Assembly (NCBI GenBank): GCA_947184155.2
Contig: CAMXCT020006201.1
Location: forward strand, 52,626 to 116,625
DNA from: Cladocopium goreaui
Lineage: Eukaryota; Sar; Dinophyceae; Suessiales; Symbiodiniaceae
Reading direction: 5' to 3'
Length of the DNA stretch: 64,000 nt
This document shows, piece after piece, positions 5,154 through 63,085 of the stretch. The translations under genes were made by a program, and so were the position numbers. The notes beneath the pieces are model-generated. The model made no database searches. It saw only the letters and a program-made list of their open reading frames with translations, and was not told the origin of the DNA. Numbering within the stretch: the stretch's first letter is position 1; each line of letters begins with the position of its first letter.

Positions 5154-5395
5154 GTCACCGAATGATTCGTCACCGAACGAATCGTCACCGCATGTTGGCT
5201 TGTTAGGGGGGACTTCGTCCCTACCCCCCAAGGCAAAACCGAAACAAAGGGAACTGGAACAATGCCCTAAAAGACATAAGTATGCACAGCCTAGCTCTAC
5301 CCCCAAACTTTTGGTACGGCGGGAGTTGCGCCCACCTTTTAAGGGACGGTGCGTGAACCAAAAGAGCTCAGAACCCCACCTTCACTCGAAACGCA
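5154..5395. repeat. ORF1-ORF2 linker with CGTCACCGAA repeats and hairpins
   Basis: Three tandem CGTCACCGAA/CGTCACCGCA units (5154-5193) are followed by a potential hairpin GGGGGGACTT...CCCTACCCCCC (about 5203-5230). A longer one pairs CTTTTGGTAC near 5309 with GTGAACCAAAAG near 5355-5370. Related CGTCACCGAAT units recur at the 3' end of the element (8774-8832). Confidence 0.6.
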
Positions 5396-8900: not shown

Positions 8901-9197
8901 ACTTGCTAATGTTTTTCTTTGTTCACCTTCACTTTTTATTTATTTGTTTTATTTCATTCGATGAGACAACGGTTCCTGGTTCTGCTGCGCTAAATATACA
9001 TTCTCTTTCCGTTCCCCTTCAACTTCATACGGAATGACTACGCGAAAGGCGTTTGAAAATTTCCAAGATGTTTCACACATTCTTAATTAATTTCTCCTCA
9101 GCCGATTACCTCGCTACCTTTGTTCATATTTGTTTTTTCACAATTTCAACGGCTATGGTTCTGTGCACAGACTTCTGCAGTCTGCACGGGAAAAAAA

Positions 9198-10436
9198 CCG
9201 TACATTACCATACATTACCATACATTACCATACATTACCATACGTTACCATACATTACCATACAGTACCATACATTACGATACATTACCATACATTACCA
9301 TACATTACCATACATTACATACATTACATACGTTACATACATTACATGCAGTACATACATTACATACATTGCATACATTACACACACTACATACACTACA
9401 TACATTACATACATTACATACATTACATACATTACATACATTACCTGCATTACATGCATTACATACATACATTACATACATTACATACATTGCATACATT
9501 ACATACATTACATACATTACATACATCAGACCCTTTGCACGCATACATGGCATACATTGCATAGATTGCATAGCTTGCACAGATTGCATAGATTGCATAC
9601 ATTGCAAGCATTGCATAGATTGCATAGACTGCATAGATTGCATACATTGCAGACTTTGCATAGATTGCATACATTGCATACATTGCAAACATCGCATCGA
9701 TTGCATAGATTTCATGGATTGCATACATTGCATGCATTGCATACACTGCATACACTGCATACACTGCATACACTGCATACATTGCCTTACATTGCCTTAC
9801 ATTATGTTACATCACGTTACATTATGCTACATTACGTTGCATTACGTTACATTACGTTACATTACGTTACATTACGTTGCGTTACATTACGTCACATTAT
9901 GTTACATTACATTACATACAGTACATACATTGCATACATTACATACATTACAGTCATTACATACATTACAATTACATACATTACATACATTACAATTACA
10001 TACATTACATACATTGCATTCATTCCGTACATTACACAAATTACACACAAATTCCAAAACATACATTACACACATTACATACATTACATTAATTAGATAC
10101 ATTAGATGCATTTGATACATTACATACATTACAATTACATTACATTACATCACATACATTACCATACATTACCATAGATTACATACATTACCATACATTA
10201 CATATATTACATACATTACATACATTACATACATTACATGCAGTACATACATTACATACATTACATACATTACATGCATTACATAGATTCCATACATTCC
10301 ATTCATTACATATATTACATTACATACATTACATGGCATACATACACACATACATACCTACATACATACATACATACATACATTCATACCTACATACATC
10401 CCATGACATCACACGACTTGACATGACATGAAATAC
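9198..10436. repeat. CATTACCATA minisatellite array, right part
   Basis: Continuation of the array beyond the retrotransposon. It starts with 10-bp TACCATACAT units and passes into 8-bp TACATACAT-like units. A subregion of GCATAGATT and GCATACATT units (about 9545-9790) and a TTACGTTACATTA subregion (about 9790-9910) follow. Frames such as HTLHTLHTL and MQCMQCMQ are repeat translations. Confidence 0.95.
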
Positions 10437-48970: not shown

Positions 48971-50769
48971 TTCCGTGCGTTTTCCGATGTGCAGCGCTCT
49001 GCCCATCTCGCTCCTCCTCCTCCTGATGTTCGACCTGAACAAGCCAAATCACTCTTGGATGTATGGAAGAACTATCGCACATGGGGTAGCAACAATTATC
49101 CAAATCTTCCTGTCCATGTTCGCACAATGATGGAGCTCATGAACTGCATCGCATCCATGAATGTTTCCAACTACCAAATGTCGACGAAGCAGAAGCTTCT
49201 TCTCATTATGCTTGTTGATGGTGAACACTGGCGTGCACATGATCGTCAAATGTTCTACTATGAGAATGGTGTGTGGAAGATGAAGCCGTCTCTCACCATC
49301 GAAGTCTGGGATCTATTTCTTGCTGTTGAAGGTTTGTTGTTGACCGTCTCGAAGCGCTTCGAAGATCAAGAAGGAGATGCAAGACCAGCATGGAATTGGA
49401 ATGCTATTCGGGATGTTGTCTCTGATACGATCCAAGGACATGTCCATGACGCTCTCCATTTCTTCGGGAATGTGGCCAAAGAAGCAAGTGACCATCTGCG
49501 GCAAGTCACATCCAACAAGGCATGGAAAGCACTTTGGCTTCGTCGATGTGCAGACATGCTAGCTTCATTCCGAGTGAATTGGGATTCGAACAAGGTCCAG
49601 TCACTCTCAAAGCTTTTTCTTCTTGAATGGGATACTCCATTGCCAAAGTCACAGGGTGTTTGCTTCAGAGACGTGTACTTGGATGCAGATTGGAAACCTG
49701 CAAGCAAAAGCCCGTCCAATGACTGCTACATGCATGTGGACTATGCCTTCTACATAGAAAACCTCTTGCAGGAGTATCCGAACATCAATCTCCAACAGCA
49801 TCAAGAAGGATTACGTTTGTTCTTGGAGTCGCTCTACTTTCAGAACGAACATATCTTTCAAGTGAAACTTTGTTTTTTACATGCCGCATTCAAAAAGGCT
49901 TGCACTTCAAAGATGATCTTCGAGATTGGCAAAGGCGGCGATGGCAAGGGGATGGAAGCTTATCTTGATCGTGCTGTATTAGGTGAAGATCAATCTGCAA
50001 CTTTGGATTGTGGCGTGTTCTTGGATCGACACGCAAGTCTGCCGAGTTCGCATGGAACAAGGCGAATGTGCGTATCCAGGAAATGGATCAGCACGCAAGA
50101 TTCGTTGCAGATCTTTGGAAAAGATTCATCGTCGATGAAGAAATAGATTGTCGTGTCAATTATGGATTTACATCCAAACGACGATTTGGGTCATCTATGA
50201 AAGTTCAGGAACTTAACTTTGAGAACATCCCGACCATCGAGGAGTGTCGAGATCGACTCCAGGCTTGTGAGCATCTCAAGCGTCGCATCGTTTGCTTTCG
50301 TATAGGGAAGGCTCGCTTCGTGCTTGACGACCATGCAGTGAACTATGAACACGGGGTTTTCCGTCTCATTCCGCAAGATGAGCTGGTCCCTTTCTTGACA
50401 CATCCTGCAACGGCTTCATGTTTCTTTCGAGATTGGTGCTTGCCCTTCTTTCAGGAAAACTCTTTGGATGAATGTTTGAAAATGATCCTGGATCTTAGCC
50501 ATGTACATGAGGACTTGGTCAACGACACCAATTGGTTGGCTTCTCGCTTGTCCGGCTGGAATGGCCCTGCAGGCACAGACATTGACCTCCAGACAGAGAA
50601 CGACGAATTGATCACGATCGTGCATCGGAAAACGCCCATGAAGACATTCATCAAGGAGTATCTCATTTCAAAGGTTGAAGATATTCCAGGAGCTGTGCAG
50701 TCTACCCGTGATCGACGAACCAAGTTGCAGTTCTTTCTTTCTGCCTTGGACCACTCCACCATCAAACTC
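48971..50769 (+). CDS. Outer transposon gene: D5/SF3-like helicase region, frameshifted and cut by the insertion
   Basis: The first frame runs to about 50030 and the second from about 50030 to 50769; a single frameshift joins them into continuous protein-like sequence. The N-terminal part contains QMFYYENGVWKM, like the YxxxGxW stretch before viral/plasmid D5-type helicases. Around 49927-49958 lies a P-loop-like GKGGDGKG, which has Gly in place of the usual Ser/Thr after Lys. Downstream comes TLDCGVFLDR and a charged helix NKANVRIQEMDQ. Superfamily 3 helicases of this kind unwind replicating viral or plasmid DNA. The odd P-loop leaves activity doubtful. After residues HSTIKL the frame enters the nested element, whose TIR supplies a stop at 50773. 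Confidence 0.6.
49927..49958 (+). other. P-loop-like motif of the outer gene
   Basis: Encodes IGKGGDGKGME. It fits the GxxxxGK pattern of Walker A, but the residue after Lys is Gly. Confidence 0.55.
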
Positions 50770-50801
50770 CCCTGAGCATCGGATATTGATTGTAATCAAT
50801 A
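50770..50801 (+). repeat. Left terminal inverted repeat of the nested transposon
   Basis: Starts CCCTGAGCATCGGATATTGA. Its inner part (TATTGATT GT AATCAATA) is itself a palindrome. It also supplies the stop codon TGA that truncates the outer gene. Confidence 0.95.
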
Positions 50802-51000
50802 CTATTCTGAAAATATTGATTTTAGAGTTTTTTCAATATTTTCTATTGATTTTAACACAGTTCAAAATCAACAGGAATTCTGCCTTTTGGGAATCCACAA
50901 CACACCAGATAGGATCAACAACTTAATCAATACAAAAATCAACAACATAATCAATATAAAGAAGCTTGAACAACAATAAAATCAATCAAAACCCACAGCT
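50802..51000. repeat. Left subterminal ATTGATT/AATCAAT repeats
   Basis: At least seven copies of ATTGATT or AATCAA(C/T)A in both orientations. They are likely binding sites for a transposon-encoded protein. Confidence 0.7.
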
Positions 51001-51090
51001 TTTTAGTGCTAGTGTGGACACTCCAGGCTTTATATTACAGTTTTCTTTTTCATCTTCTTTCTTATTTGTCTGGTGAGACTGGGAAGTGAA

Positions 51091-51110
51091 GCATCCTTTG
51101 GTCAAGGATG
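51091..51110 (+). repeat. Short palindrome, arms CATCCTT/AAGGATG
   Basis: Perfect 7-bp arms around loop TGGTC, downstream of the transposase gene's stop. Confidence 0.9.
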
Positions 51111-51148
51111 GCAGACCTATCAGCTGCTTGTGCTGGGTGTCTCCAGAT

Positions 51149-51165
51149 ACCCTTTTGCCAAGGGT
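51149..51165 (+). repeat. Short palindrome, arms ACCCTT/AAGGGT
   Basis: 6-bp arms, loop TTGCC. Confidence 0.85.
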
Positions 51166-51195
51166 GTGGCAGAAAGACCTTTGGTCAAGGACCAT

Positions 51196-53094
51196 CTACC
51201 ATTCTTCACCATCACTGTCTGGAGACACACCCAAGTCAAACCCAAGCCTTGTCAGCTGCATGTGCAAAAGAATGCGATACTTAATCATGAGCTTGCCTGA
51301 AAGTCTTGTTGATTTGACTCCCATAGCCAATGATCTGGCTAATGTTGCCACCCTCCCCACAAAGTCTTCAGATCTGAAGTTCCATGTGTACCTGGGATTC
51401 AAGAATTGTGCCTCCTTGACCAGGTGATGTTGGCAATGGTGCTTGTAGACAATGTGGTAAAGTTTATGGTCATTCTTCTGGGCCCACTTGTTCAGCTCTG
51501 TGTAATGCCTGCAAAACCTTTGGTCAAGGTCCTGCATGGCTTGAAATTCCTTTGGGCAAGGAAACAGCCCTGCTGCATCAAATGCAGCAACCAAGTCCAC
51601 CATTGCCTCCAGAGCTCCCACCATGTGTTGGTGAAGGATATTGTTTGGTTCTAGTATGCTTTTCAGCACTGGTAAGAATGCACTGAGCAAATGTTTTGTC
51701 TCTGCTCCTTTTGCTTCTAGTTTGGCATACTCTTGGTGAGGCTTGGAGGGATCACAGATCATGCTCAATCTGAGGTTGGTGAGTCGAGTTGGTGTCTGAA
51801 GTTCCTTGTAATTTTCCTGGATCTTGGAGAAAATCAATGCCAGCCTTTGGCTGGGCTGCTTGTTTTGCTTGCCTCTGCCTTGGTTGTAACACACATGGTG
51901 AAGCAAAGAGCCAAGCAGGTGTGAACACACACCTTTCACAAAAAGCACATGCAGCCCATCCTGTCGAACCATTCTAATGGTGAGGCCTGGGGTTTCAAAC
52001 AGCTGGTGCTGGCTACCTTTTGTTAAGGCTGCTGCTGTGTCAGTGTAAATGAATTTTTGGTTCTCTGGCAGCAATTCTTTGAAACTCTTCCCCTTCCCAC
52101 AAGGCTTGCCTTTTATGAAAGGTTGCTGGGCATCACAAGCATGGCAGCAGCTGTGGGAATTCCAATGGGGCAGGTGAAGAACATTGCTGTACATTTCTTG
52201 GTCCCCTTGAATGGACCAAAGCACAGCCCTGTAACCTCTGCCTGTGAGGGGCTGCCCAGCAAGCTGTTCAAAAATGGACCCTTTTGGCAAGGGTTCATTG
52301 TCAGGGCCAAAACATGGGTGTAAGCCTTCTTGCAGTGCTTCCAAAGACCATTGCACCCATTGCATGATGGGGGTCCAGGTGTCAGAGACTGTTGCAGATT
52401 TTGGCCAAGCACAGATTAGGAAATGGGAAGTCAAACTGCTATGTGCATTGAGAAACCCACCCCAATTCCAAATCATCAGGGAGTCTCTACTCTGGAACTC
52501 GACTCCATCAGCATGAATGAAAATTGGAATGGTAGTCTCAGGGTCTTGCACCTGCCTTTTGGCAAGGCCCTGCCTTTTGTCAAGGCAGATGGGGTGGCCC
52601 TGCAGTCGATCATCCTGGGAAGCTTCAACTCCTCTCCAAAAGTCATTCAGATGTTCAACACCAAACAAAGTTTCAAACTGATCTGTATAATGGTGGAAAA
52701 GGTCTGCAAATAAAATGTGTGGCAGCAGAATGCCAGCTTTTTCCATAGACACCTGTGAAGTCTTTGGGTCTTTGCATTTTGTTTCAACTGGTGTGCTGCC
52801 AGAAATCTTGCAGTCCTTGGTGAAGCTGGCACACAAATCTCTGTGGCAATTCCCAGGTAATGACCCATGACTTCCTGTTTTGGCATTGGTTGCCAAGTCA
52901 TGGCCACTGGACCCAGTGAGAATTGCTTTGTGGGCAACATCTTGAACTAGTTTTGCACTAAGCTGCCCATGGCTCCACAAGGACAAAAGTGTTTGTGCCA
53001 GCACACTCTGCTCACCATCCCCTTTGGTCAAGGGCTCTGTCTCTAGCTTGGCCAGCTCCAAACCATGGCTCCTCAGTCTTTTGACTGGCTTCAT
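51196..53094 (-). CDS. Transposase candidate, Tnp2-like (632 aa)
   Basis: Intact from ATG at 53094 to 51196. A central block resembles CACTA Tnp2-type transposases. IPIFIHADGVEFQSRDSLM has a candidate first catalytic Asp (HADGVE). A spacer with a Trp-rich stretch follows (TWTPIMQWVQWSLEALQEGL), then RAVLWSIQGDQEMYSN with a second Asp (GDQE) and SHSCCHACD, a Cys pair like the CPYC of Tnp2. The C-terminal third is helical with many His and Lys, ending acidic. LTKG and LDKR peptides come from in-frame copies of the short palindrome. Being the only transposase-like gene inside the TIRs, it should mobilise the element. The similarity is by motif order, not strong identity. Confidence 0.6.
   Translation of the reverse strand: MKPVKRLRSHGLELAKLETEPLTKGDGEQSVLAQTLLSLWSHGQLSAKLVQDVAHKAILTGSSGHDLATNAKTGSHGSLPGNCHRDLCASFTKDCKISGSTPVETKCKDPKTSQVSMEKAGILLPHILFADLFHHYTDQFETLFGVEHLNDFWRGVEASQDDRLQGHPICLDKRQGLAKRQVQDPETTIPIFIHADGVEFQSRDSLMIWNWGGFLNAHSSLTSHFLICAWPKSATVSDTWTPIMQWVQWSLEALQEGLHPCFGPDNEPLPKGSIFEQLAGQPLTGRGYRAVLWSIQGDQEMYSNVLHLPHWNSHSCCHACDAQQPFIKGKPCGKGKSFKELLPENQKFIYTDTAAALTKGSQHQLFETPGLTIRMVRQDGLHVLFVKGVCSHLLGSLLHHVCYNQGRGKQNKQPSQRLALIFSKIQENYKELQTPTRLTNLRLSMICDPSKPHQEYAKLEAKGAETKHLLSAFLPVLKSILEPNNILHQHMVGALEAMVDLVAAFDAAGLFPCPKEFQAMQDLDQRFCRHYTELNKWAQKNDHKLYHIVYKHHCQHHLVKEAQFLNPRYTWNFRSEDFVGRVATLARSLAMGVKSTRLSGKLMIKYRILLHMQLTRLGFDLGVSPDSDGEEW
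51547..51563 (+). repeat. Short palindrome, arms TTCCTT/AAGGAA
   Basis: 6-bp arms, loop TGGGC, inside the transposase gene. Confidence 0.85.
52278..52294 (+). repeat. Short palindrome, arms ACCCTT/AAGGGT
   Basis: 6-bp arms, loop TTGGC, coding for LPKG in the transposase. Confidence 0.85.
52554..52588 (+). repeat. Two adjacent short palindromes
   Basis: GCCTT-TTGGC-AAGGC at 52554-52568 and CTGCCTT-TTGTC-AAGGCAG at 52570-52588. They lie one base apart and encode LDKR and LAKR. Confidence 0.9.
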
Positions 53095-53096
53095 GC

Positions 53097-53115
53097 TGCC
53101 CTTTTGTCAAGGGCA
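53097..53115 (+). repeat. Short palindrome at the transposase start, arms TGCCCTT/AAGGGCA
   Basis: 7-bp arms, loop TTGTC, ending two bases before the ATG of the minus-strand transposase. Confidence 0.9.
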
Positions 53116-53836
53116 CTGAGCACAAGCCTTTGGGCAAGGCATGGCTCTTTCCCCTTTGAGGAAACACTTGAACCAAAACTTTGCACAACACTTGGCTTGC
53201 CAACCCTGCAGACCCTGCCAACCCTGGAGGCTTACCAACCCTTGGTGCTTCTTAAGCTGTATGCTTTTTACAGCCCAAGTGGCTGACTTACTTATTAGAT
53301 ACCCAGAAAAAACTTGTGTGGTTTAGACCCTTGGTGCTTCTTAAGCTGCATGCTTTACAACCCAAGTGGCTGACATATTTATACATACCCAGAAAAAACT
53401 TGTGTGGTTTAGTGGTGTGGTGTGCAGCCCCCCAACCCCCTGAACCACTTAAGTGGCTGTGCTGCAGCATTTTTTTGACTTGATGCCTGCTGTCGGTTTG
53501 CCAGCCAAGAGACCCTACATCACCCTTTGGTCAAGGGGAGAAGGTCTCATGTGGCTGCCTGTACCTGCCAATTGCCTGGGCAATGGCAACATCAAAAACT
53601 GAAAGCCAATCACCTTTTGTCAAGGATATGGCGACATCAAAAACTTGAAGCCAGTCACCTTTGTGCAAGGTAGCACTGGAATTTAAACAAGATACTACCC
53701 TTTGCCACTAGCTATAGGTGTACTCTTTTGTCAAGAGCACACAGGGTCCTTTGGTCAAGGGCCCCTTTCAAAGCATTGTTGCTTCACTTTTTGCTGCTTT
53801 TGGAAAAGCTTTTGTTTGCCAATGCCTTGTATTCTT

Positions 53837-54997
53837 TCACTTCTGTTTTGACTTGGTTGGTGCATACCACTGCATCTTTGATGGTTTGCTTTGCTGCTTC
53901 CACATTGCCACCCTTTTTTTATTTGTAATTGCTTTGAGCTTTTGTTCCCATTCTTGGGCATGTTTCAAAGTCAGGTGTGCTTCCTTCCTGTCTTGCTTGG
54001 AAGTTCTGCCTGCTTGGCTAGCAGCTTCCAAAGCTTCTTCCAAGTTTCCCACTGCCACCCTGAGATGCTCTTTGGATTTTTGTGCTTTTGTCAAGCACTC
54101 AGCCCATTGCTCTTCAGGTGTCTTCTTGTCTTTGTCATCTTCTGTGTCATTTGGGTTACCATCCTCTATGGCCAGCACTCCTCTGCCTCTTCCTTTGCTT
54201 CCTCTGCTCCCTTTGCCTTTTGTCAAGGCACCTTGGCCCTTACCTTTTGTCAAGGCAGGGCCCTGGCCTTTGAAGGCAACTTCAGCCTCCTGCATGCTGG
54301 CCAAAGAGCCTTTGCCCCAGTAGCTCATGAACTCCTTTTCATCCTCTGCATCATCCATTTCCCTTTCCTGCCCCACTGTGACTTTGTGCTTTTTCTTCAA
54401 CTGGACCTGTTTGGTCAGGTCCCCCTGGTCACAGTATTGGTAGATGCCAGGGGTCCATGGGTCTGAGCGCCATTTGACCCTTCCTGATGCCAAGTGCTGT
54501 TCAAATTCATCTTTGCTGAAATCCTGCAGCATCTTGTGTTCACTGACCCATTTCTCACCTTTTGTCAAGGTTTCACTGGCTTCTTTGGAGGTTTCTGTAT
54601 GGAAGAACACACCTTTCTTGTGCTTGAGAAACCAAAGAACAACTTCAAGTCCTTTTTCCTTCTTCCCCAACTGCTCATGAGCCTCTTTCTCTTCTTCCTT
54701 TCCCTTCAAATAGGTTTTGTGCTTGGACCACAGCTTAGCAGATTCATCTTTTGTCAAAGAATCTTTTAAGACTATGGCTGCTTCCTCTGCTGTGTTTGCT
54801 TTTTCTGTTGCTTTTTTCACTTTCTCATCCAAAGTCAGCTTGCCCAGCTGGGCAAGCTTACCTTTTGTCAAGGTAGCTCTCTGATGTTTCCCTGTGGCTT
54901 TGCTTTTGCTTTTGGCCTTGGCCTTACTTTTTCCCTTTGGGCAAGGGCTTGCTTTGTTTTTCAAAATTCCAGGTTTCACTTTCTTTTTTGGTGCCAT
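53837..54997 (-). CDS. Lys-rich coiled-coil protein of the nested transposon
   Basis: I start it at the first ATG of the frame (54997, MAPKKKVKPGILKNK); the frame stays open 27 codons upstream without an ATG. The N-terminus is very basic (KSKAKAKSKSKATGK) and probably nuclear. A helical middle with KLWSKHKTYLKGKEEEKEAH follows. Next come an aromatic patch VKWRSDPWTPGIYQYCD, a Gly/Lys-rich hinge with two palindrome-derived LTKG peptides, and a C-terminal coil (ALEAASQAGRTSKQDRKEAH). No known domain. It could be a DNA-binding accessory protein analogous in role to TnpA of Spm, but that is inference from position only. Confidence 0.6.
   Translation of the reverse strand: MAPKKKVKPGILKNKASPCPKGKSKAKAKSKSKATGKHQRATLTKGKLAQLGKLTLDEKVKKATEKANTAEEAAIVLKDSLTKDESAKLWSKHKTYLKGKEEEKEAHEQLGKKEKGLEVVLWFLKHKKGVFFHTETSKEASETLTKGEKWVSEHKMLQDFSKDEFEQHLASGRVKWRSDPWTPGIYQYCDQGDLTKQVQLKKKHKVTVGQEREMDDAEDEKEFMSYWGKGSLASMQEAEVAFKGQGPALTKGKGQGALTKGKGSRGSKGRGRGVLAIEDGNPNDTEDDKDKKTPEEQWAECLTKAQKSKEHLRVAVGNLEEALEAASQAGRTSKQDRKEAHLTLKHAQEWEQKLKAITNKKRVAMWKQQSKPSKMQWYAPTKSKQK
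54082..54098 (+). repeat. Short palindrome, arms GTGCTT/AAGCAC
   Basis: The arm pair GTG/CAC replaces the common CC/GG; loop TTGTC. It encodes CLTKA. Confidence 0.9.
54214..54230 (+). repeat. Short palindrome, arms TGCCTT/AAGGCA
   Basis: 6-bp arms, loop TTGTC; encodes LTKG. Confidence 0.9.
54855..54878 (+). repeat. Short palindrome, arms TACCTT/AAGGTA with extension
   Basis: After one bulged T the arms continue as AGC/GCT; loop TTGTC. Confidence 0.85.
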
Positions 54998-55026
54998 GTG
55001 CAAGAAGCTAGAGCTTGCAGATCCTA

Positions 55027-55043
55027 CTCCTTTGGTCAAGGAG
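55027..55043 (+). repeat. Short palindrome upstream of nested gene 2, arms CTCCTT/AAGGAG
   Basis: 6-bp arms, loop TGGTC, about 30 nt before the ATG at 54997. A further TA/TA pairing is offset by two bases. Confidence 0.85.
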
Positions 55044-55123
55044 AGTACATTTGCCTTTTGAACCAAAAGACTGAACACACAGAAACAGAATCAAACTTGG
55101 ATGCCTTCCTATTTGCCTGTTGA

Positions 55124-55145
55124 GAAACTTTGACAAAAGAGTTTC
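55124..55145 (-). repeat. Short palindrome in reverse orientation
   Basis: GAAACT...AGTTTC arms around TTGACAAAAG, the reverse complement of the usual core, in non-coding spacer. Confidence 0.75.
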
Positions 55146-55227
55146 ACATAAGCTTTTTAAACACATATATGTTCCTAGGCCAACAGCTTTGGGAAAAATA
55201 AATTTAGATTTTTCTTGTTCTTGGATG

Positions 55228-55250
55228 AACAGCCTTGACAAAAGGTTGTT
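55228..55250 (-). repeat. Short palindrome in reverse orientation, G-T wobble in the stem
   Basis: AACAGCCTT and AAGGTTGTT pair over nine positions with a single G-T mismatch; loop GACAA. Confidence 0.8.
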
Positions 55251-55342
55251 ACATTCAATTCTATGCTACCAACCATGTGGAAACAACATTGGGAAAAAAC
55301 AATATATATTTTTTAAACCTTTTTCTGAATATATATAAAAAA

Positions 55343-55420
55343 ACAAATTTTGACCAAATTTGACCAAATTTGACCAAATTTGACTTTTGGTCAAATTTGG
55401 TCAAATTTGGTCAAATTTTT
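55343..55420. repeat. Long hairpin of TTTGACCAAA/TTTGGTCAAA units
   Basis: Three and a half AAATTTGACC units are followed by the same number inverted as TTTGGTCAAAT. The arms are about 33 bp and the central TTTGACT is nearly all loop. The word TTTGGTCAA is the core of one loop type of the short palindrome family. It sits in an intergenic spacer. Confidence 0.9.
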
Positions 55421-56444
55421 ATTTTTCTATTTTTTATTATTATGTTTTTTATTATTTTTTATTTTTTTGTATTAAAACAGTTTCAAAGGTGAAAATCTGG
55501 CCACAACCTTTTGTCAAGGCTGCAATCCAGACAGCACCCAATGCTTATACCTTGGATTCACTCTGAGTTTGAAAGTGGAAAACCTGTGCCCCAAATGGTT
55601 TCTTACCAATTGTGTTTCATACTGGAATGAATTTTGGGGAGAAATGGTTTGAAATACAAAATTCAAAAACTCCTATGGCTGCTGAACCCCTTGAACAAAA
55701 CAAAATTCAAACTATTTCTTATAAAGATTTGAAAGGCAACTGGAAAATATTCCCTTGGTTGTAAAATTGCACCAAGAATACCAACAAATATATGGACACT
55801 TCCAATGAACAATTTATTTTTGTCAAAGTATATTGTTTCAGAATAGTATCTACCTTTCTATTTATCTATATATATATATTTAAATACATATATATATATA
55901 TATATATATCTATTTATATTTAACTATATGTGCAAAACATGCCCAGATAAACAAATAATATATATATATATATGCCTCAAAGCCTTGTTCAAAATAACAT
56001 TTACAACTATCACCAGAACAAAAGTTGAACAACATTGAAACCATTTACTGTATTTCAAAATACTCTGAATGAAAGAATTGAAAGATAACCACTACCCATA
56101 GGTTCCATATATTGTAAAGTAAGTGCAGTTTGCCCAAAATAGTTCTTAATAAAATTGGTATGTTTTTCAAAAATATTCTTATTGAATTTTATTATAATAT
56201 TTATTTATTTATTATTTTTATTTTTCATTTTCATCCATATTGTGTGCTCATCACCTTGCTTCATTCCTTTTGTCAAGGAAACAGCAGTGATGTGAAACTG
56301 GCTGGTCCCTTCTTGTCAGGGATGCAAGCGCTTTGGTCAAGGGACTTGCCACCAGCCATAAAAACTCTGCAAAAACTACTGGCAATTCCCTTTTGTCAAG
56401 GGGAGGTGCCTACAAACCCTTTTGTCAAGGGAATGTGTGGCCCC

Positions 56445-57647
56445 CTACTTGCCATCCAAAAAGTGCCACACAGCCACATCAAAAGTGGGGTAGGTGTTCA
56501 TACCCCAGCCATGGGCATTCCACCAGGGCACAATGGCAAAGCACTCAATACCCCACTGGCCACACTCTTGGATCACATCCCACCTGTCATCAAACAGGAT
56601 CTTGATGCCTGCCCTGTGCAGAGCTTGGGCCTTCCCCTCCCTGCCACATGGTTTGTGGCAAAAGATTTTGCCACACCAGTTGCTGTACACCCCATCACTC
56701 AGGAAATCTGTTTCCTTTTGCCTGTCTGGCCCAGAGTATGAACATAGGAAAATGTCATACCCTGCATCCTCCAGCTTCTGCAAGGCCCTCCTGTTGGCAC
56801 CAGACACATTATTTCTGATTTCCAAGGTGTGGTGCCAATCCACTGCAATTCTTGGCCTCTTGGGCTGCCAGCTGTACCTTTTGTCAAGGTACCCTGGTCC
56901 TTCTTTGAGTTTGATGCCCTCCTCCTCTTTCACCTTTTTGGCAGGTGGCTCATGGTCTGATGATGAAACATCAGATGCATCCCAGTCAGGTGATGAACTT
57001 GCTGGTGAGCTTGATGAGCTGCTGGTCTGGGGCTTGCTCTCCTTTTGCTTTTCTTTTGCTTTTTCTTTTGGGCTGGGGCCAAAAACCAATGGTTTTGGAA
57101 CCTCCCTTTTGTCAAGGTTGGTTCTTTCTTCCCATTTTTCAACCTCTGTTTGCACTTTGCTTTTGTTTGGTTTGGGTGCCTCCTGCTTGATCTCTTGTTT
57201 GGGATCTACTTTTTCCATTGCTTGCTTTGCAGCCCCATCTGATTTTGGATCTCTTTTGTCAAGAGATACTGGCTCAGGTTTGGCTTGGGCATCCTTGGTG
57301 TCAGGACTAGCCTCCCTTTTGTCAAGGTTGGCTGAAGAGCTTGCCCTTTTGCCATCCTTTGCTGCTTTGCTGCTTTTTTTCAACTTTTTGCAGTCTTGCT
57401 CCAGTTTTTCTTTCTCCTTTCTTTTTTCTTCTGCTTCCTTGGGCCACAAATAGTCATGCAACTCCTGTTTTGTCAACAGGTGTGGCTTTCCATATGTTTT
57501 GTCAGCAGCTGCTTTTGCCCAATCTATGTTGACATCTTCAAGTCTCATGTTTTTATTTTCTCTTTCCATTCCTTTTTTCCTGAATTTTTCTTTCCTGGCC
57601 TCTGTGGTGGTGCCAGTGCCCTGTTTTTTCCCCTTGTTGTTGAGCAT
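56445..57647 (-). CDS. Protein with C-terminal HAD-like domain, nested transposon
   Basis: The first ATG is at 57647; the frame is open 25 codons further up, starting just after a TAA. The first 250 residues are charged and low-complexity (EKEKLEQDCKKLKKSSKAAK), with several LDKR peptides from in-frame palindromes. A Ser-rich acidic stretch leads to the C-terminal domain. RIAVDWHHTLEI fits HAD motif I with the second Asp replaced by His, and DIFLCSYSG fits motif II. Conserved Lys residues and IKILFDDRWDVIQEC resemble motif IV. HAD-fold proteins are mostly phosphatases; the changed motif I makes catalysis uncertain. It lies between two other minus genes with the same hairpin context. Confidence 0.6.
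   Translation of the reverse strand: MLNNKGKKQGTGTTTEARKEKFRKKGMERENKNMRLEDVNIDWAKAAADKTYGKPHLLTKQELHDYLWPKEAEEKRKEKEKLEQDCKKLKKSSKAAKDGKRASSSANLDKREASPDTKDAQAKPEPVSLDKRDPKSDGAAKQAMEKVDPKQEIKQEAPKPNKSKVQTEVEKWEERTNLDKREVPKPLVFGPSPKEKAKEKQKESKPQTSSSSSSPASSSPDWDASDVSSSDHEPPAKKVKEEEGIKLKEGPGYLDKRYSWQPKRPRIAVDWHHTLEIRNNVSGANRRALQKLEDAGYDIFLCSYSGPDRQKETDFLSDGVYSNWCGKIFCHKPCGREGKAQALHRAGIKILFDDRWDVIQECGQWGIECFAIVPWWNAHGWGMNTYPTFDVAVWHFLDGK
56874..56892 (+). repeat. Short palindrome, arms GTACCTT/AAGGTAC
   Basis: 7-bp arms, loop TTGTC; encodes YLDKRY in the HAD-like protein just before its domain. Confidence 0.9.
57098..57124 (+). repeat. Short palindrome with two-step arms GAACC..CCTT/AAGG..GGTTC
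   Basis: Outer GAACC/GGTTC and inner CCTT/AAGG are separated by a TC/TT internal loop; encodes NLDKRE. Confidence 0.9.
57249..57267 (+). repeat. Short palindrome, arms ATCTCTT/AAGAGAT
   Basis: 7-bp arms with a different sequence from neighbours; loop TTGTC; encodes SLDKRD. Confidence 0.9.
57309..57333 (+). repeat. Short palindrome with two-step arms AGCC..CCTT/AAGG..GGCT
   Basis: Same TC/TT internal loop as the copy at 57098, but the outer arms are AGCC/GGCT. Confidence 0.9.
57464..57480 (+). repeat. Short palindrome with changed core, arms CCTGTT/AACAGG
   Basis: The usual CTT/AAG core is GTT/AAC here, a matching change on both sides of loop TTGTC; encodes LLTKQE. Confidence 0.85.
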
Positions 57648-57650
57648 TGC

Positions 57651-57665
57651 CCCTTTTGTCAAGGG
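57651..57665 (+). repeat. Short palindrome upstream of nested gene 3, arms CCCTT/AAGGG
   Basis: 5-bp arms, loop TTGTC, three bases before the ATG at 57647. Confidence 0.85.
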
Positions 57666-57675
57666 AGCTTCCACA

Positions 57676-57698
57676 AGCTTTCTTTTGTCAAGAAAGCT
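57676..57698 (+). repeat. Short palindrome, 9-bp arms AGCTTTCTT/AAGAAAGCT
   Basis: One of the longest perfect arms; loop TTGTC. Confidence 0.95.
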
Positions 57699-57709
57699 AA
57701 AGAGGGGAA

Positions 57710-57726
57710 GCCCTTTTGTCAAGGGC
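57710..57726 (+). repeat. Short palindrome, arms GCCCTT/AAGGGC
   Basis: 6-bp arms, loop TTGTC; third copy in 80 bp upstream of nested gene 3. Confidence 0.9.
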
Positions 57727-57919
57727 CTTTACTCCTAGTAGTCAAGCTTGAGTTTTCAAACAGCTGCAGTGGTAGAAATGCCTGCCAGGTGTGAACCCCC
57801 CTTTAGTCAAGGCACCCAAAAGAACATGCATTGCATATTTTTCAGTGTGTTTCTCTAAAATTCCATGAAAAAAACACCCTGAGAAAGTTTCCATACATTT
57901 GAAATCAAGTTGGTGGGGC

Positions 57920-58260
57920 CAAACCATGAGAAAACCATCATGACACTTTGGTTGGATTATCCACTGTTGTATCTGTTTTCATGTGGTGTATATCTTCATT
58001 TGTTGTCAGAAAATGTGTACTTGATTGATATATACATAATATATATATATTTGTGTATATAATCAGTTTTCAAAATTTCAGTATATACTTAAAAATGTAT
58101 ATGCATATGAATGTATATATATATAGTGTTTTTTTTGTAATATATATATATATACAGATTTTTGTTTTTTTACATATATTTATTTAAATATATAATTCAA
58201 TTATTTATATTTAGTTCATTTATTTCATTTATTTATTAATATATTTTCACCCCTTAATAA
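57920..58260. other. Spacer between nested genes 3 and 4
   Basis: AT-rich with TATATA and TTTATTTAT runs, no gene. Confidence 0.6.
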
Positions 58261-58321
58261 TTTGTTCTTGTTGGCAACCTTTGGGCAAGGAGCCTGGGGT
58301 GAAACATACATAGCCCAACCA

Positions 58322-58348
58322 TGTCAAACCTTTTGTCAAGGAATGACA
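58322..58348 (+). repeat. Short palindrome with outer arms TGTCA/TGACA
   Basis: Inner CCTT/AAGG, AA/AA internal loop, then TGTCA/TGACA; loop TTGTC; spacer DNA. Confidence 0.85.
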
Positions 58349-58423
58349 GGTATCTGTGCAAGGGCCAGCCATGCATCAATTGGGCAGATATCTATAGCAC
58401 CACCATTGCCTTTGCTGACTGAA

Positions 58424-58467
58424 ACCCTTTTGTCAAGGGTAGGGGGCCCTTTTGGCAAGGAACCCCC
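58424..58467 (+). repeat. Two adjacent short palindromes
   Basis: ACCCTT-TTGTC-AAGGGT at 58424-58440, then GGGGG-C-CCTT-TTGGC-AAGG-AA-CCCCC at 58442-58467. Confidence 0.9.
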
Positions 58468-58480
58468 AGGGCCAAAAGCC

Positions 58481-59590
58481 CTAGCTCAGCAACTCTTCTC
58501 TCAAAGCTCTGGCTTGCTCTTTGGTTAGATGCTCAGCTTGCAGCCTTCTGTGGATAACCCCAATCACCTCTCTGTATTGTGGGGTCATTTTCTTTGTCAC
58601 TTCGACTATGTGGTGAATAGGTTCAGGTGGCCCATGGCTTCCTTGGATGTAGGCCCTTTCTGGGTTCCTGGGATAGGTTACCTTCAAGGTTTTCCATGGC
58701 TGTTTTTTTGTGCTTACTGCAGCTGTGCTTACTGCAGCTGCAGGCCTTTTCATTTTGGAACCCTTCTTCTCTTTTTTGCATGTTTGTTTTTTACCCAAGG
58801 CCAAAGCTTTTGTCAAGCTTTGGTCTTGGTCCTTTGAGTTCCAGCTTGGTCTCTTTAGCACCAAAGAACCCTTTCTCCTTTTCAAAAAAGATCCCTCATC
58901 AGGTAATGCATTGGAACTGCTTGCTGCTGCTCCTTTTGTCAAGGGGCTGTCCTCCAATGGCAAGGCATTGGATTGCTGTGGGCTTTGCAAGCACTTGGGG
59001 AAGCCACTGGAATCCATGGAGATGGCAGAATCTTCTTTCTTAAGCTGCCTCCTTTTGGCAAGGGGGCCAGCTTCTTCTTCCTCTTGCTGCCCCCTTTTGT
59101 CAAGGGAAGCAGCTTCTCTTTCCTCATCACTGTTTTGCTCTGTGTCCTTGCCTGCCAAGTTTTGTGCAAGCTCTTTCAGCAGCTGGTATTCTTTTCCACT
59201 CACTTTTGCTGCTACTTTTGCAAGCTCTTCCTCAGATTTCAACCTTCTAAGATGAAGGAGGACAGTTGTAACCCTTTCTGCTCTCATGTTGCAGTATACC
59301 AGTCCATTGAAGTCTGTTGTGTTTATCTTCGGTTTGTGCTGGACCAGCTTCAGCAATGCTTGCCTCAGAGGACCTGGGTGGATCTCACCTGTGGGGGAAA
59401 GATCCAACAAAGCTTCCAACAGAGGCAGGCAATGCACTAGGCCCTTGGCATCTGTGGCTTGCTGCCTGCTGACAGTCTCATACCTTCCCAGTGAAGACAC
59501 CAAAGAGACATGTTGGTTCAATGTTTGGAAAAGCACAAAGGGGTCCACCATTGGCTTGGAGAAGTGCCTTGCCCCACCCTTGCTGGCCAT
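58481..59590 (-). CDS. Helical protein of the nested transposon (369 aa)
   Basis: Intact from ATG at 59590 (MASKGGARHFSKPMVD). The N-terminal 150 residues look folded (LVHCLPLLEALLDLSPTGEI, then LVYCNMRAERVTTVLLHLRR). The middle is acidic and low-complexity, with LDKR, LAKR and LTKG peptides from in-frame palindromes and a Lys-rich stretch KKEKKGSKMKRPAA. The last 70 residues form an amphipathic helix region (YREVIGVIHRRLQAEHLTKE). No domain recognised. It is the gene closest to the right TIR and points into the element. Confidence 0.6.
   Translation of the reverse strand: MASKGGARHFSKPMVDPFVLFQTLNQHVSLVSSLGRYETVSRQQATDAKGLVHCLPLLEALLDLSPTGEIHPGPLRQALLKLVQHKPKINTTDFNGLVYCNMRAERVTTVLLHLRRLKSEEELAKVAAKVSGKEYQLLKELAQNLAGKDTEQNSDEEREAASLDKRGQQEEEEAGPLAKRRQLKKEDSAISMDSSGFPKCLQSPQQSNALPLEDSPLTKGAAASSSNALPDEGSFLKRRKGSLVLKRPSWNSKDQDQSLTKALALGKKQTCKKEKKGSKMKRPAAAVSTAAVSTKKQPWKTLKVTYPRNPERAYIQGSHGPPEPIHHIVEVTKKMTPQYREVIGVIHRRLQAEHLTKEQARALREELLS
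58801..58823 (+). repeat. Short palindrome, 9-bp arms CCAAAGCTT/AAGCTTTGG
   Basis: Perfect arms, loop TTGTC; encodes SLTKAL in nested gene 4. Confidence 0.95.
59093..59120 (+). repeat. Short palindrome with outer arms GCTGC/GCAGC
   Basis: Inner CCCTT/AAGGG, outer GCTGC/GCAGC; encodes SLDKRG. Confidence 0.9.
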
Positions 59591-59603
59591 TGCTTCAAAA
59601 CTA

Positions 59604-59624
59604 GAATCCTTTGGTCAAGGGTTC
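59604..59624 (+). repeat. Short palindrome upstream of nested gene 4, arms GAATCCTT/AAGGGTTC
   Basis: 8-bp arms with one T-G wobble, loop TGGTC, 13 nt before the ATG at 59590. Confidence 0.9.
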
Positions 59625-59635
59625 CCCCAAAACTA

Positions 59636-59658
59636 AGCTAGCTTTTGTCAAGCCAGCT
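59636..59658 (+). repeat. Short palindrome, arms AGCT.GCTT/AAGC.AGCT
   Basis: Outer AGCT/AGCT and inner GCTT/AAGC with one mismatch, loop TTGTC. Confidence 0.85.
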
Positions 59659-59749
59659 ACAAAATCTTGATGGATCCTACTTGAGACAAATGGTTACATA
59701 TGGCTCTCATGCAGTTTGGCCAGAAGCTTGGCCCATGGCACACACTCAA

Positions 59750-59940
59750 GGTGAAAATCAACAGAAAAATCAATAGGAAAATCAACAACTTAATCAATAC
59801 TGCAGAGGCATCAAAACATGTACATCTGAAGCCAAATCAATATTTTCGGATGAAAACAAATCAATAAAAAAACTTGGTAGTTCTATTGATTTTTTCAATA
59901 AAAATTGGAAAATCAATATCAATAGAAAACTATCTGTTCC
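59750..59940. repeat. Right subterminal ATTGATT/AATCAAT repeats
   Basis: About ten AATCAA(C/T)A or TATTGATT words in both orientations, mirroring the left subterminal region. Confidence 0.7.
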
Positions 59941-59972
59941 TATTGATTACAATCAATATCCGATGCTCAGGG
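59941..59972 (-). repeat. Right terminal inverted repeat of the nested transposon
   Basis: Exact reverse complement of 50770-50801. The ATG inside it (59963) is an accident of the insertion and not the start of the downstream gene. Confidence 0.95.
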
Positions 59973-59974
59973 TC

Positions 59975-61954
59975 TTTCGTCAACATGATCAGCATGCTTT
60001 CGAGAAACTCTTGGTGGATTGGGCTTCTTTGGCTGCAGCTATGGATGCTCATGGTGGTGCGCTTGCTTTCGGTCAGTGGAAAGATTGGGGCTGCACCTTT
60101 GATCTGCGGCATCTGCAGCAAGAATGGGAGTCAAATCTCTTTGTGGACTTGCAAAATGAATGTCAAGGAAATGTCACGCATCACGGAAGTCTCTCATCTC
60201 AAATCCGGCCGACTGTAGCAACATTGCAGGAAACAGTGGACTTGGAGGCTTTGCAAGCCTACTTGGAAAGTGGCTCAGACAGAAGGACTTCGCAGCTTCG
60301 GGCCTATGTTGATCGTCATGCTTCTGAAGGAGTTCGCGTGGGGCGCTTTTCTACTGTCTCTGTCGGGTACTACAAGGCCCCCAATTATGGTCGTTTACTT
60401 GCTCGTGGCCCTGCTGCACAAAAACTCACTCGAGAAGCTCGTGGAAAAGCCTTCCCCCATGCCATTGAGATTGATGCAGCTTGTTGCCATCCTCGTCTTC
60501 TCTTGCGAAAACTTCGAGATATGGGATTGGACGAGGCAGGTAGTTTCCAGATGCTTCGTCTCTTCTGTGAGAACTACAAGTCATGGCGGTCAGTTTTGGC
60601 TCAGTATCTTTGCGTTGATGTCCAGGAGGCAAAAAAGGAACTTATCCGCATCTTCTACGGTGGCAACCCGCGTTTCGATATTCCATGGCTCCGCAAGCTT
60701 GGGGAAGAAGTTCAGGCAGCTGCTCATCTGATTCTACAAGATCACAGACATACTCATCTTTCTGATTTGTACAATGATCGCAGACATCCTGAATTCAGTC
60801 GGCCTTGTTCTTTGCTATCATTCGATGAAGCTGACCTATTGGACACCATTCGGACCCATGCGCATGTGAAAATGGAGGTTGCTCTCTTTGACGGAGGCAT
60901 TGTGTCGTGCACATCTGTGCAAGATCTCTTTTGGTTGCATCGTGCTTGCGCAGAAACTTCCCACAACATCATCCCCGTCGAGATCAAAAGTGAGCCGCAA
61001 AGTATGAAGACTTTCTTGCATATGTTGGTGTGCAAGAACATCGTGAACATGATGGAAGTCGAAATTCCTTCCACTCCGGCAAACTGTTTGCTCTTTGCTG
61101 TTCAAGGTGTTGCACCTCATGTTGATCTCAGTAGTTTGCGCCAAGTTTTGCAAGACAAGCCAGAGTCCTCGCTTTCCGCTCATCAATTCAATGAAGCTTT
61201 GGCAGATGCAGACTCTGCAGCCGACACTGCTTGGCAATTGCATTGCATCTCCAAGGATGAGTTGCTCTCCGTTGTCCCAGCGCACCCGATCCTTTGTCAT
61301 GAACGTTCTGGAGAATGTCAAGGACACTGGTGGTCCTTTGTGATGATTGAGGATGAGGCAAGGCTATTTGATTCTGAGATTCCTTCTTTCGAAGTGACTG
61401 CTCGATGGGAAACCTTTGCATCTGCTTTGGAAAAATCTGATGCATTGACTTTCTTCGAACTGAAACAGATGCACTTGAAGACGGAAATGTCGATGTCAGA
61501 GGCATATCACTTGCAAGGTCGTGGCCGTGCGGATGGATCCTCCACAGTGAAGTCCGTGCGAACACCCCTCAAGAATTGTGCTCTGTGTGGATCTTGTCTA
61601 TATCCCAAGCGCAAACAGTTCTCTACGGCAACAGTTTATAGACTCGAAGGTCCCGAGACTGTCCTGCACCAGCCTATGCGATGTGGACAGAAGTCATGCC
61701 AAGCCTCCCACTACTACAACTTCGTGTGGAGCAACGGCATCAAGACCAATTCGCTCGATCCCAACCAGGCCGAGTATATCTTCGTGACCGCCAACACCGG
61801 GTTCCACGTCTCCTTCCTTGCTTATCACGATGCCCTGCAATTCAGAGGCTACTTGAGCAATCACGCCATCGCCTGGTCCCAAACGAACGCATTATGGGCA
61901 GATGACCATGCACATGCTCGATTTCACAAGGACTATGCATTGGCTCGTCTCTTG
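59975..61954 (+). CDS. Outer transposon gene, middle part: palm-like motif, protease-like signature and Cys cluster
   Basis: Continues the frame broken at 50769 (FRQHDQHAFEKLLVDWASLA). About 60452-60510 it reads FPHAIEIDAACCHPRLLLRK, which recalls the Asp-containing palm motif of family A-type polymerases (D-x-x-x-x-H-P). At 61072-61375 there is a protease-like set. It has a Cys in TPANCLLFAVQ, a His in CQGHWWSFVMI and an Asp in ARLFDSE, the order and spacing of papain/Josephin-fold enzymes. At 61575-61720 lies a Cys cluster (NCALCGSCLYP, then RCGQKSCQASHYYNF) followed by a region like the CxC domains found before KDZ transposases. The exon ends phase 0 at a GT donor (CTCTTG|GTATGG). Confidence 0.65.
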
Positions 61955-62209
61955 GTATGGATGAAAAAAATTGCTTCAATCTATTAACCAGTCTGATGCA
62001 GTACATATATATATATATATTTAATTTTCGTATATGTATGTAAGAGAATATTCATATATATATATATATCATTATTGTTTTCTGTTGAGCAATTACTTAA
62101 TACTATTGGTAGCCCTATGTGTATATTATCAGTTTCTCCACTGTGTTTGGAACGAGTCTGTCATGATGAAACAATCAATATGTAGGAATATATATGCATT
62201 GTTCTGCAG
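61955..62209 (+). other. Intron of the KDZ gene (GT-AG, phase 0)
   Basis: 255 bp, AT-rich, from GTATGG to TTCTGCAG. Both flanking frames are phase 0. The unspliced frame stops 11 codons in (after KKIASIY). The acceptor side opens with HYKQGLLWNVMSELS, continuous with the transposase frame. Confidence 0.8.
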
Positions 62210-63085
62210 CATTACAAACAAGGTCTTCTCTGGAATGTCATGAGCGAACTGTCGGTCATGTGGAAATCCACTATGCCAAGCACTTCCATTCAGAAACTTC
62301 GCACAATTCGCGTAGATGATCCTGTGCATGAAGGGCATCTTCGGGACTTCCACCGATGGTGGCAAACCATCGAAACTCCCCATCGCATGTCGCAGTCTGT
62401 CAAAGAGATCGCTGTCGATGGCCACGAGAAGATCGCCACAAAGTGCTATCATGAAGCACCAGCTCGCGGTGGTCGTCCTCGGAAGGATGGCCATGTCAAA
62501 TTGTTCTACAACGGCTGGTTCATGGCGACACACCCTGGGACCGGAGTCATCCTAGGCCTTTTTGAGATGAAAGATCCAGAGAATTCGGATGTTGCGCTCA
62601 ATCTTGTGCAAAATTTGCTACCGCATTATCCCAAAGTGGATGCAGTACTCTACGATCGAGCCTGTAGCATCTTCAAGAAGGCTAAGAACACACAGGATTT
62701 GAAGCCTGTCAAGTTCTGGTGTGTAGACAAATTCCACGCAAAGGGACATTGCAACAAATGTAAATGTTCCCCGTCTGTGGTGCCAGCAATCGATAAGCGA
62801 CTGAAAAGAGTCAACACATCGATTTCTGAACAGGTGTTTTCGTGGTTCCGTGGGTACAGCTCCACATTCAACTCCATGAACGCGAAACACCAAAGATTCT
62901 ATGTGTTGGCTTACTCGCGTCGACACAATCATTTGCAAAAATTAGATGACATGCAGCACCTCAATCCTTGGTCTGCCCGTAAGTCCACTTTGAAGCGAGC
63001 CGGCGTGCTGCAGAAGCCAGCCAGCCGCAAATATAAGTGTAGGGTCAAGAAGCAAGCCGTCTTGAAGAGACCCGCACAGAAATGA
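62210..63085 (+). CDS. KDZ transposase domain, C-terminal exon
   Basis: The exon opens phase 0 at 62210; an internal ATG at 62240 is not needed. KDZ (Kyakuja-Dileera-Zisupton) transposases use an RNase H-fold D-D-E triad. Candidate residues, numbered from Met 62240, are Asp60 (KEIAVDGHEK), Asp139 (AVLYDRACSIF) and Glu197 (NTSISEQVFSWF). Between the last two is a Cys/His cluster KFHAKGHCNKCKC, typical of the family. YSSTFNSMNAKHQRFYVLAY follows, and a basic tail of KKQAVLKRPAQK ends the protein. This domain should cut and join the ends of the outer element. It is intact here, but its gene is broken upstream. Confidence 0.85.
   Translation, partial: HYKQGLLWNVMSELSVMWKSTMPSTSIQKLRTIRVDDPVHEGHLRDFHRWWQTIETPHRMSQSVKEIAVDGHEKIATKCYHEAPARGGRPRKDGHVKLFYNGWFMATHPGTGVILGLFEMKDPENSDVALNLVQNLLPHYPKVDAVLYDRACSIFKKAKNTQDLKPVKFWCVDKFHAKGHCNKCKCSPSVVPAIDKRLKRVNTSISEQVFSWFRGYSSTFNSMNAKHQRFYVLAYSRRHNHLQKLDDMQHLNPWSARKSTLKRAGVLQKPASRKYKCRVKKQAVLKRPAQK

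Follow-up and report, generated by a model that had tools for sequence, protein, structure and literature searches.

The boxB hairpin of lambdoid phages is a short antitermination signal that occurs at a few places in a phage operon. According to an excerpt of PMC12550061, boxB loop variants mediate binding of the cognate N peptide, and the P22 boxB pentaloop, GACAA, takes up a GNRA-like fold in which the C loops out towards the peptide. Single-stranded RNA viruses and hepatitis B virus carry dispersed packaging-signal stem-loops with a common loop motif and one reading protein (an excerpt of PMC7612645). Here we describe 52 small hairpins with a nearly constant loop, in gene sense CCTT-GACAA-AAGG, that extend over 8.5 kb of a transposon in the dinoflagellate Cladocopium goreaui. 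The transposon is a 9,203-bp element at 50770..59972 of a 64,000-nucleotide stretch of contig CAMXCT020006201.1 (assembly GCA_947184155.2), the whole of which we call the window. It lies between 32-bp perfect terminal inverted repeats (TIRs), and its minus strand carries all four of its large open reading frames (ORFs). With somewhat better than even confidence, we read these structures as sense-strand RNA hairpins that a loop-specific binder recognizes and that selection maintains throughout a DDE transposon of RAG1 fold.

Number, orientation and layout of the hairpins

An earlier note on this DNA had described about 50 tiny palindromes in one transposon. Using its criterion (CTTN5AAG extended by one or more paired bases) and dinucleotide shuffles as the control, we found 48 sites in 50770-59972 against a shuffle mean of 1.02 (maximum 5; 60 shuffles), so the palindromes are real and an equal density in shuffled sequence is refuted. 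The excess persists at higher stringency, with 30 sites having at least two extra pairs (0.43 in shuffles) and 17 having at least three (0.10). The claim that none occur in the other 54 kb is right in effect, since the remaining 54,797 bp of the window hold 3 sites where 2.67 are expected (15 shuffles). "One transposon" holds for the window, where the hairpins are confined to a single TIR element, but relatives of two proteins of the element carry peptide traces of them.

Our working set consists of 51 sites that depart from CTTTTGTCAAG, on one strand or the other, by no more than 2 mismatches, and a 52nd (53659, 3 mismatches) that was added by hand. A covariance model built from these 52 sites found nothing in the window beyond the element with an E-value better than 0.22; its matches inside the element, which exist by construction, cover every hairpin listed here except 52548..52574. 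A single copy of the element was examined as DNA, and its relatives are known from protein sequence.

50770..59972, no strand, whole element, 32-bp perfect TIRs at both ends
50770..50801, plus, left TIR, 32 bp, inverted pair, 100% complementary
59941..59972, minus, right TIR, 32 bp, partner of left repeat, 100% complementary
51196..53094, minus, ORF1, 632 aa, candidate RAG1-fold DDE transposase, 7 hairpins within
53837..55078, minus, ORF2, 413 aa, lysine-rich, 74 relatives among the matches listed, 8 hairpins within
56445..57722, minus, ORF3, 425 aa, 6 relatives among the matches listed, 7 hairpins within
58481..59590, minus, ORF4, 369 aa, 4 hairpins within
51088..51114, minus, hairpin, spacer
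51144..51170, minus, hairpin, spacer
51171..51197, minus, hairpin, spacer, touching ORF1 end
51510..51536, minus, hairpin in ORF1
51542..51568, minus, hairpin in ORF1, GCCCA loop (a GACAA loop would read TGA in this frame)
52009..52035, minus, hairpin in ORF1
52273..52299, minus, hairpin in ORF1
52548..52574, minus, hairpin in ORF1, without a covariance-model row of its own
52566..52592, minus, hairpin in ORF1
53014..53040, minus, hairpin in ORF1
53093..53119, minus, hairpin, spacer
53120..53146, minus, hairpin, spacer
53517..53543, minus, hairpin, spacer
53606..53632, minus, hairpin, spacer
53651..53677, minus, hairpin, spacer, 3 mismatches to core, hand-added
53717..53743, minus, hairpin, spacer
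53741..53767, minus, hairpin, spacer
54077..54103, minus, hairpin in ORF2
54209..54235, minus, hairpin in ORF2
54236..54262, minus, hairpin in ORF2
54551..54577, minus, hairpin in ORF2
54740..54766, minus, hairpin in ORF2, TTT/AAG base
54854..54880, minus, hairpin in ORF2
54927..54953, minus, hairpin in ORF2, GCCCA loop (a GACAA loop would read TGA in this frame)
55022..55048, minus, hairpin in ORF2
55121..55147, plus, reversed hairpin, upstream of ORF2
55226..55252, plus, reversed hairpin, upstream of ORF2, long stem
55500..55526, minus, hairpin, spacer, long stem
55809..55835, minus, hairpin, spacer, TTT/AAA base
56259..56285, minus, hairpin, spacer
56323..56349, minus, hairpin, spacer
56382..56408, minus, hairpin, spacer
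56411..56437, minus, hairpin, spacer
56870..56896, minus, hairpin in ORF3
57098..57124, minus, hairpin in ORF3, near-twin of 57308..57334
57245..57271, minus, hairpin in ORF3
57308..57334, minus, hairpin in ORF3, near-twin of 57098..57124
57459..57485, minus, hairpin in ORF3, GTT/AAC base
57645..57671, minus, hairpin in ORF3
57674..57700, minus, hairpin in ORF3, 9-bp perfect stem
57705..57731, minus, hairpin across listed ORF3 start
57793..57819, minus, hairpin, spacer
58271..58297, minus, hairpin, spacer
58322..58348, minus, hairpin, spacer
58419..58445, minus, hairpin, spacer
58441..58467, minus, hairpin, spacer, weak covariance-model match (E 0.27, core only)
58799..58825, minus, hairpin in ORF4, 9-bp perfect stem
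58925..58951, minus, hairpin in ORF4
59044..59070, minus, hairpin in ORF4
59086..59112, minus, hairpin in ORF4
59601..59627, minus, hairpin, spacer
59634..59660, minus, hairpin, spacer

Fifty of the 52 hairpins have the same orientation as the four ORFs. They occur in genes and spacers, as had been noted, at similar densities: 26 inside ORFs (3.6-6.4 per kb), where they are read through in frame, and 26 outside (7.1 per kb). Only 2 of the 26 coding copies are in the frame where GACAA gives a stop, and both have TGA-free loop variants. The reported interval of 180 bp is close to the mean spacing of 168 bp, but the spacing is irregular (coefficient of variation 0.90, versus 0.97 at random; P = 0.29), so there is no phasing.

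Conserved loops and paired stems

The commonest loops are GACAA (31 copies), GACCA (9), GCCCA (4) and GCCAA (4), with one copy each of GGCAA, AACAA, GCACA and GACTA. The form G-N-(C)-R-A, a GNRA-like loop on a paired stem, fits 36 of the 52 (31 of them GACAA). At the base of the loop the stem is CTT/AAG in 48 copies, TTT/AAG in two, TTT/AAA in one and GTT/AAC in one. Further out, the arms of different copies are unrelated and have nothing in common beyond CC..GG, yet they are complementary: 69.9% of outer-arm cells are paired, compared to 58.9 +/- 1.6 in shuffled arms (0/500). The covariation score of the outer arms is 0.343, as against 0.160 shuffled (0/500) and 0.091-0.165 when the register is slid. 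Because the arms are non-homologous between sites, this covariation is not explained by shared descent. Per-pair covariation is significant for six pairs outside CTT/AAG and for none further out, so that the structures, first described as hairpins of 13-23 bp, are confirmed as palindromes whose pairing extends further than was noted. Among individual sites, the long stem at 55220-55262 has a folding energy of -18.3 kcal/mol (z -6.9), and one A-U pair is exchanged for G-C between the ORF3 near-twins at 57098-57124 and 57308-57334. The constant loop and the variable yet complementary outer stem suggest that selection acts on a structure, in preference to a mobile sequence.

The palindromic core, and its dense distribution along the whole element, would also suit duplex DNA sites for a dimeric element protein such as an anti-silencing or coating protein. 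However, a dimer site would conserve both half-sites, whereas the outer arms keep complementarity only, and the strand that carries the loop is nearly always the same; we consider sites of this kind very unlikely.

Synonymous codon choice favours arm pairing in the 26 coding copies, which have 3.54 of 6 outer pairs, compared to 2.40 after peptide-preserving synonymous resampling (p = 5e-5). Non-coding copies equal them in pairing (3.38 of 6). This equality is a point for a mutational process in which, once a core has arisen, template switching in quasi-palindromes turns its flanks into perfect arms; the A-U to G-C swap between the near-twins could arise likewise. Such a process would leave unexplained the constant loop, the single orientation and the confinement to the element within the window, as well as the joint change of loop peptides in three reading frames between clades, and we think it improbable.

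Traces of the hairpin in related proteins

A hairpin in a coding region leaves a peptide, so we searched for such peptides in relatives of the element's proteins. Of 138 relatives of ORF1, 120 were listed; 91 of these (590-799 aa) were aligned with the query and placed in a tree, and a second alignment has 75 rows. In the 120 listed relatives the three strict peptides are far more frequent than expected (LDKR 42 versus 1.2, LTKG 75 versus 1.7, PCQK 11 versus 0.33), these and the following counts being phylogenetically non-independent. Ten sense-frame peptides total 216 versus 10.8 expected, and thirteen antisense peptides total 16 versus 16.3 (both summed). The neighbouring residues also fit the hairpin: in 126 proteins, LTKG is preceded by P, A, T or S (an xCC codon) in 79/80 cases (background 0.25), and PCQK is followed by a residue with a Gxx codon in 11/11 (background 0.29), while the finding that a residue able to end in C precedes LDKR in 62/62 is weak (background 0.78). 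Among relatives of ORF2 (73 of 74 listed) there are 168 LTKG versus 1.9 expected and 7 PCQK versus 0.05, with the correct neighbour in 166/168 and 7/7, and the antisense peptides tested sum to 6 versus 2.8. Hairpin peptides are thus enriched in three sense frames, with antisense peptides near chance, in relatives of two element proteins. We also observed runs of FDKR and FEKR/FEKS in the relatives P0126 and P0186, which suggests that stems with TTT/AAA beneath the loop may occur in further elements.

The sites turn over as the proteins diverge: the shared fraction is 0.88 at 70-80% protein identity, 0.54 at 50-60% and 0.18 at 40-50%. In comparisons with the nearest relative lacking a site there was no local length difference in 115/181; without the 4 of these in which a protein end left the local window empty, the fairer figure is 111/177. 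The turnover count used an eight-peptide pattern, which takes in more than the three strict peptides; the 217 instances of this pattern are related by descent, so the events counted are non-independent. A few copies in relatives do arrive with extra residues and are real insertions (for example, in P0016 and P0019). At some aligned sites two different frames, LTKG and LDKR, alternate between clades.

These results bear on the possibility that the hairpins are a very small mobile palindrome able to insert into reading frames, a short counterpart of the Rickettsia palindromic element with which they had been compared. The copy number, the presence inside ORFs and the extra residues beside the copies in P0016 and P0019 would suit it. 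But the arms of the copies are unrelated, a single aligned site may be occupied in either of two reading frames, and gains are mostly without length change (111/177), so that the analogy is not supported and insertion is the least likely of the explanations we weighed.

The three strict peptides are absent from 73 of the 120 listed ORF1 relatives, which show LEKG, LGKG, LQK and LKK instead; these suggest CCTT-GNRA-AAGG as the loop form in those relatives. The tetraloop patterns were partly read off the same proteins, and the frame-0 set alone was predicted before counting: PWER occurs 9 times versus 0.13 expected, PWKR 6 versus 0.27, PCER 4 versus 0.10 and PCKR 3 versus 0.22 (purine-type in frame 0, 22 versus 0.56). 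The pattern [PTSA]L[EKQGR]K[GADEV] occurs 151 times versus 6.8 expected, and a purine is favoured at the third loop base (LEKG 40, LDKG 3). In the tree of 92 sequences, whose clades have supports of 0.96-0.999, a P clade of 38 has the pentaloop peptide set and lacks the tetraloop set, clades T1 (16) and T2 (19) have the tetraloop set and, save one LTKG, lack the pentaloop set, and an N clade (19) has neither, save one LDKR. The T members form two clades that are paraphyletic to P under midpoint rooting; one tip within P (P0050) scores as T, and P0004 scores as neither. The loop codon is NCN at 115/138 P-type sites in ORF1 and 228/231 in ORF2, and NRN at 129/166 T-clade ORF1 sites (all summed). 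Because the P22 boxB loop GACAA folds like GNRA and the T peptides fit GNRA, the P and T clades appear to share a single loop shape, in two versions, on a common stem. The DNA of T-clade elements is expected to hold CCTTGNRAAAGG with paired arms.

A hairpin with a loop-specific reader is the reading we prefer because the conserved loop, the free but paired stem, the gene orientation and the clade-wise change of loop fit together under it. The palindromes would act as single-stranded stem-loops, most likely in the element's sense RNA. A binder, for which ORF2, ORF3 and ORF4 as basic proteins are possible candidates, would read the constant loop (G-N-C-N-A, mostly GACAA) and the stem end (the CTT/AAG base), leaving the outer stem free in sequence provided that pairing holds. 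Some 50 copies would let it coat the RNA of its own element, or count it, and distinguish that RNA from any other. Sites would be created by ordinary substitutions at tolerant places and retained by selection, not inserted, and the loop sequence would differ by clade with its shape retained as the reader protein changes alongside. Such recognition might serve to assemble, export, protect or translate the RNA of the element. We infer that the hairpin acts as RNA and not as single-stranded DNA, as we do the existence of the binder and its purpose. A broader version, which we offer tentatively and hold less probable, is that RAG1-fold transposons of dinoflagellates tag all the RNA they make with a hairpin code particular to their clade. 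A single loop, either the GNRA tetraloop or the P22-boxB-type pentaloop, would be repeated by the dozen on one kind of stem in each gene and spacer, and by it an element-encoded reader would gather, protect or package that RNA and ignore rival families.

Several observations weigh against the RNA-hairpin reading. Sixteen of the 52 loops fall outside G-N-(C)-R-A, two hairpins, the neighbours at 55129 and 55234, are reversed, and two weaker measures of covariation are only mildly raised (20/500 and 28/500). Sense and antisense folds do not differ beyond what shuffled flanks give (p = 0.77), and the stems show no preference for G-U above A-C (P = 0.52). In the peptides, antisense FWQG is raised in the listed ORF1 relatives (4 versus 0.24), and so are the pyrimidine-type patterns [PTSA]L[TIPLAVS]K[GADEV] (51 versus 11.6) and, in frame 0, P[CW]QR (2 versus 0.12). 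The GNRA tetraloop that T clades appear to carry, CCTT-GNRA-AAGG, is known from peptides alone, and one homologous P..RL site holds 14/20 of the frame-0 peptides printed for the T clades, so that few of the frame-0 events are independent; the peptides of the other frames are spread over as many as 19 sites in T2. No known fold, including no known RNA-binding fold, was found for ORF2.

Some of these points suit an account in which the hairpins are single-stranded or cruciform DNA sites and a protein reads one strand of the excised or replicating element, comparable to the folded single-strand sites of other mobile elements. Orientation would then be set by the DNA strand and not by the transcript, and the two are inseparable here because the four large ORFs lie on the same strand. 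Neither fold energies nor the use of G-U favours the RNA strand, and the GNRA-like fold occurs in DNA too (an excerpt of PMC12550061). On the other hand, a per-strand site gives no obvious need for copies in every gene, GNRA and P22-type loops are known best from RNA, and an enzyme of the cut-and-paste-like kind of ORF1 would not be expected to produce a long single strand. We regard DNA hairpins as unlikely.

The element, its surroundings and known systems

ORF1 has no sequence match in Pfam or PDB, but a test for the RAG1-type fold was positive, making it a candidate cut-and-paste RAG1-fold DDE transposase. Its family of 138 relatives, the named ones including Cladocopium and Symbiodinium, is without a Pfam model, and its recognition places such a RAG1-fold transposase family in dinoflagellates. 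In the alignment of 75 sequences D196, C320 and H557 are invariant, and D298, C317, H553 and E576 nearly so; judging by their spacing, these may correspond to the D, D, E and to the CxxC and HxxxH-type ligands of RAG1. Among the relatives listed, P0001 is 98% identical to ORF1 over its full length and P0015, from C. goreaui, 99% over 42% of ORF1. ORF2 is lysine-rich and unrelated to ORF1, and its structure model has long basic stretches of low confidence. Relatives of ORF1 and ORF2 have adjacent gene numbers in one eukprot set (P0018 and P0132; s605_g17 and s605_g16), and the gene pair seems to be conserved in another genome. No capsid-like or loop-reading coat protein was recognized by Pfam, PDB or fold searches, and no specific search beyond these was made.

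The flanks of the element have only TC in common, possibly a 2-bp target duplication. Large ORFs adjoin it on either side (48989-50775 and 59963-63085), and to its right there is a KDZ transposase domain (PF18758, 36.4 bits, cut-off 26.6; 62240-63082); because of this domain and the abutting ORFs, the element probably sits inside a KDZ-type element that its insertion interrupted. Both subterminal stretches (50800-51000 and 59740-59950) abound in ATCAAC/ATCAATA repeats. Beside the two reversed hairpins, 55338-55426 holds a near-perfect 80-bp hairpin (29-bp arms, 5-nt gap) made of 10-bp TTTGACCAAA-like units that resemble the hairpin core, possibly a control region. Elsewhere in the window, by eye, ORFs at 3848-6907 (plus strand) resemble the endonuclease region of long interspersed nuclear elements, and long ORFs of HTLPYIT-type repeats at 2184-3723 and 9053-10115 (plus strand) are simple-sequence arrays and not likely to be genes.

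In RAG and Transib elements the TIR begins with CAC and the target duplication is 5 bp; the TIR of this element, in contrast, starts with CCCTGAGC, and its flanks do not share five bases. Rickettsia palindromic elements, which are much longer and insertional, likewise lie in genes and spacers and are tolerated in frame, but ours is a structure of 13-27 nt with a constant loop and variable arms, gained mostly without length change. Insertion of a Rickettsia-like unit does not fit, since the arms are unrelated and 115/181 comparisons (4 of them with empty windows) are without length change. The introner elements of Amoebophrya are also dinoflagellate sequences with inverted repeats and hairpins; in an excerpt of PMC7789003 they are introns, removed by splicing, whose ends carry inverted repeats of 8-20 nt, whereas the hairpins here stay in open reading frames. 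Neither introners nor miniature inverted-repeat transposable elements match, as 26/52 copies are read through in frame and there are no ends beyond the paired arms.

The hairpins look like a repeated recognition signal, and, in keeping with the earlier note, which knew of no such family, we found no description of them in the openly licensed literature of PubMed Central. If our interpretation is true, class II transposons can bear an RNA-level identity code along their whole length, and this would be a DNA transposon with an element-wide RNA tag comparable to the packaging signals of viruses, offering a handle on how some elements thrive in huge dinoflagellate genomes. Runs of LTKG, LDKR and PCQK would then be traces of nucleic-acid structure and not protein motifs, a caution for annotators. 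To our knowledge, RNA identity codes of such extent are found only in RNA viruses, as dispersed packaging signals, and, at single sites, in phage antitermination.

The likeness to boxB lies in the loop, for the P22 pentaloop GACAA (an excerpt of PMC12550061) is the commonest loop here (31/52); the difference is that some 50 copies are spread along a DNA transposon of a eukaryote, its coding regions among the places they occupy. No N-like peptide was identified, no search aimed at one having been made. With viral packaging-signal arrays (an excerpt of PMC7612645) the element shares many stem-loops of one loop type across one genome, 52 in this case, but in those systems viral genomes are packaged as RNA, and ours is an element with TIRs that encodes a DDE-type protein. 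By that likeness, and with packaging itself suggested here only by analogy, dispersed packaging signals would be the closest known way of working.

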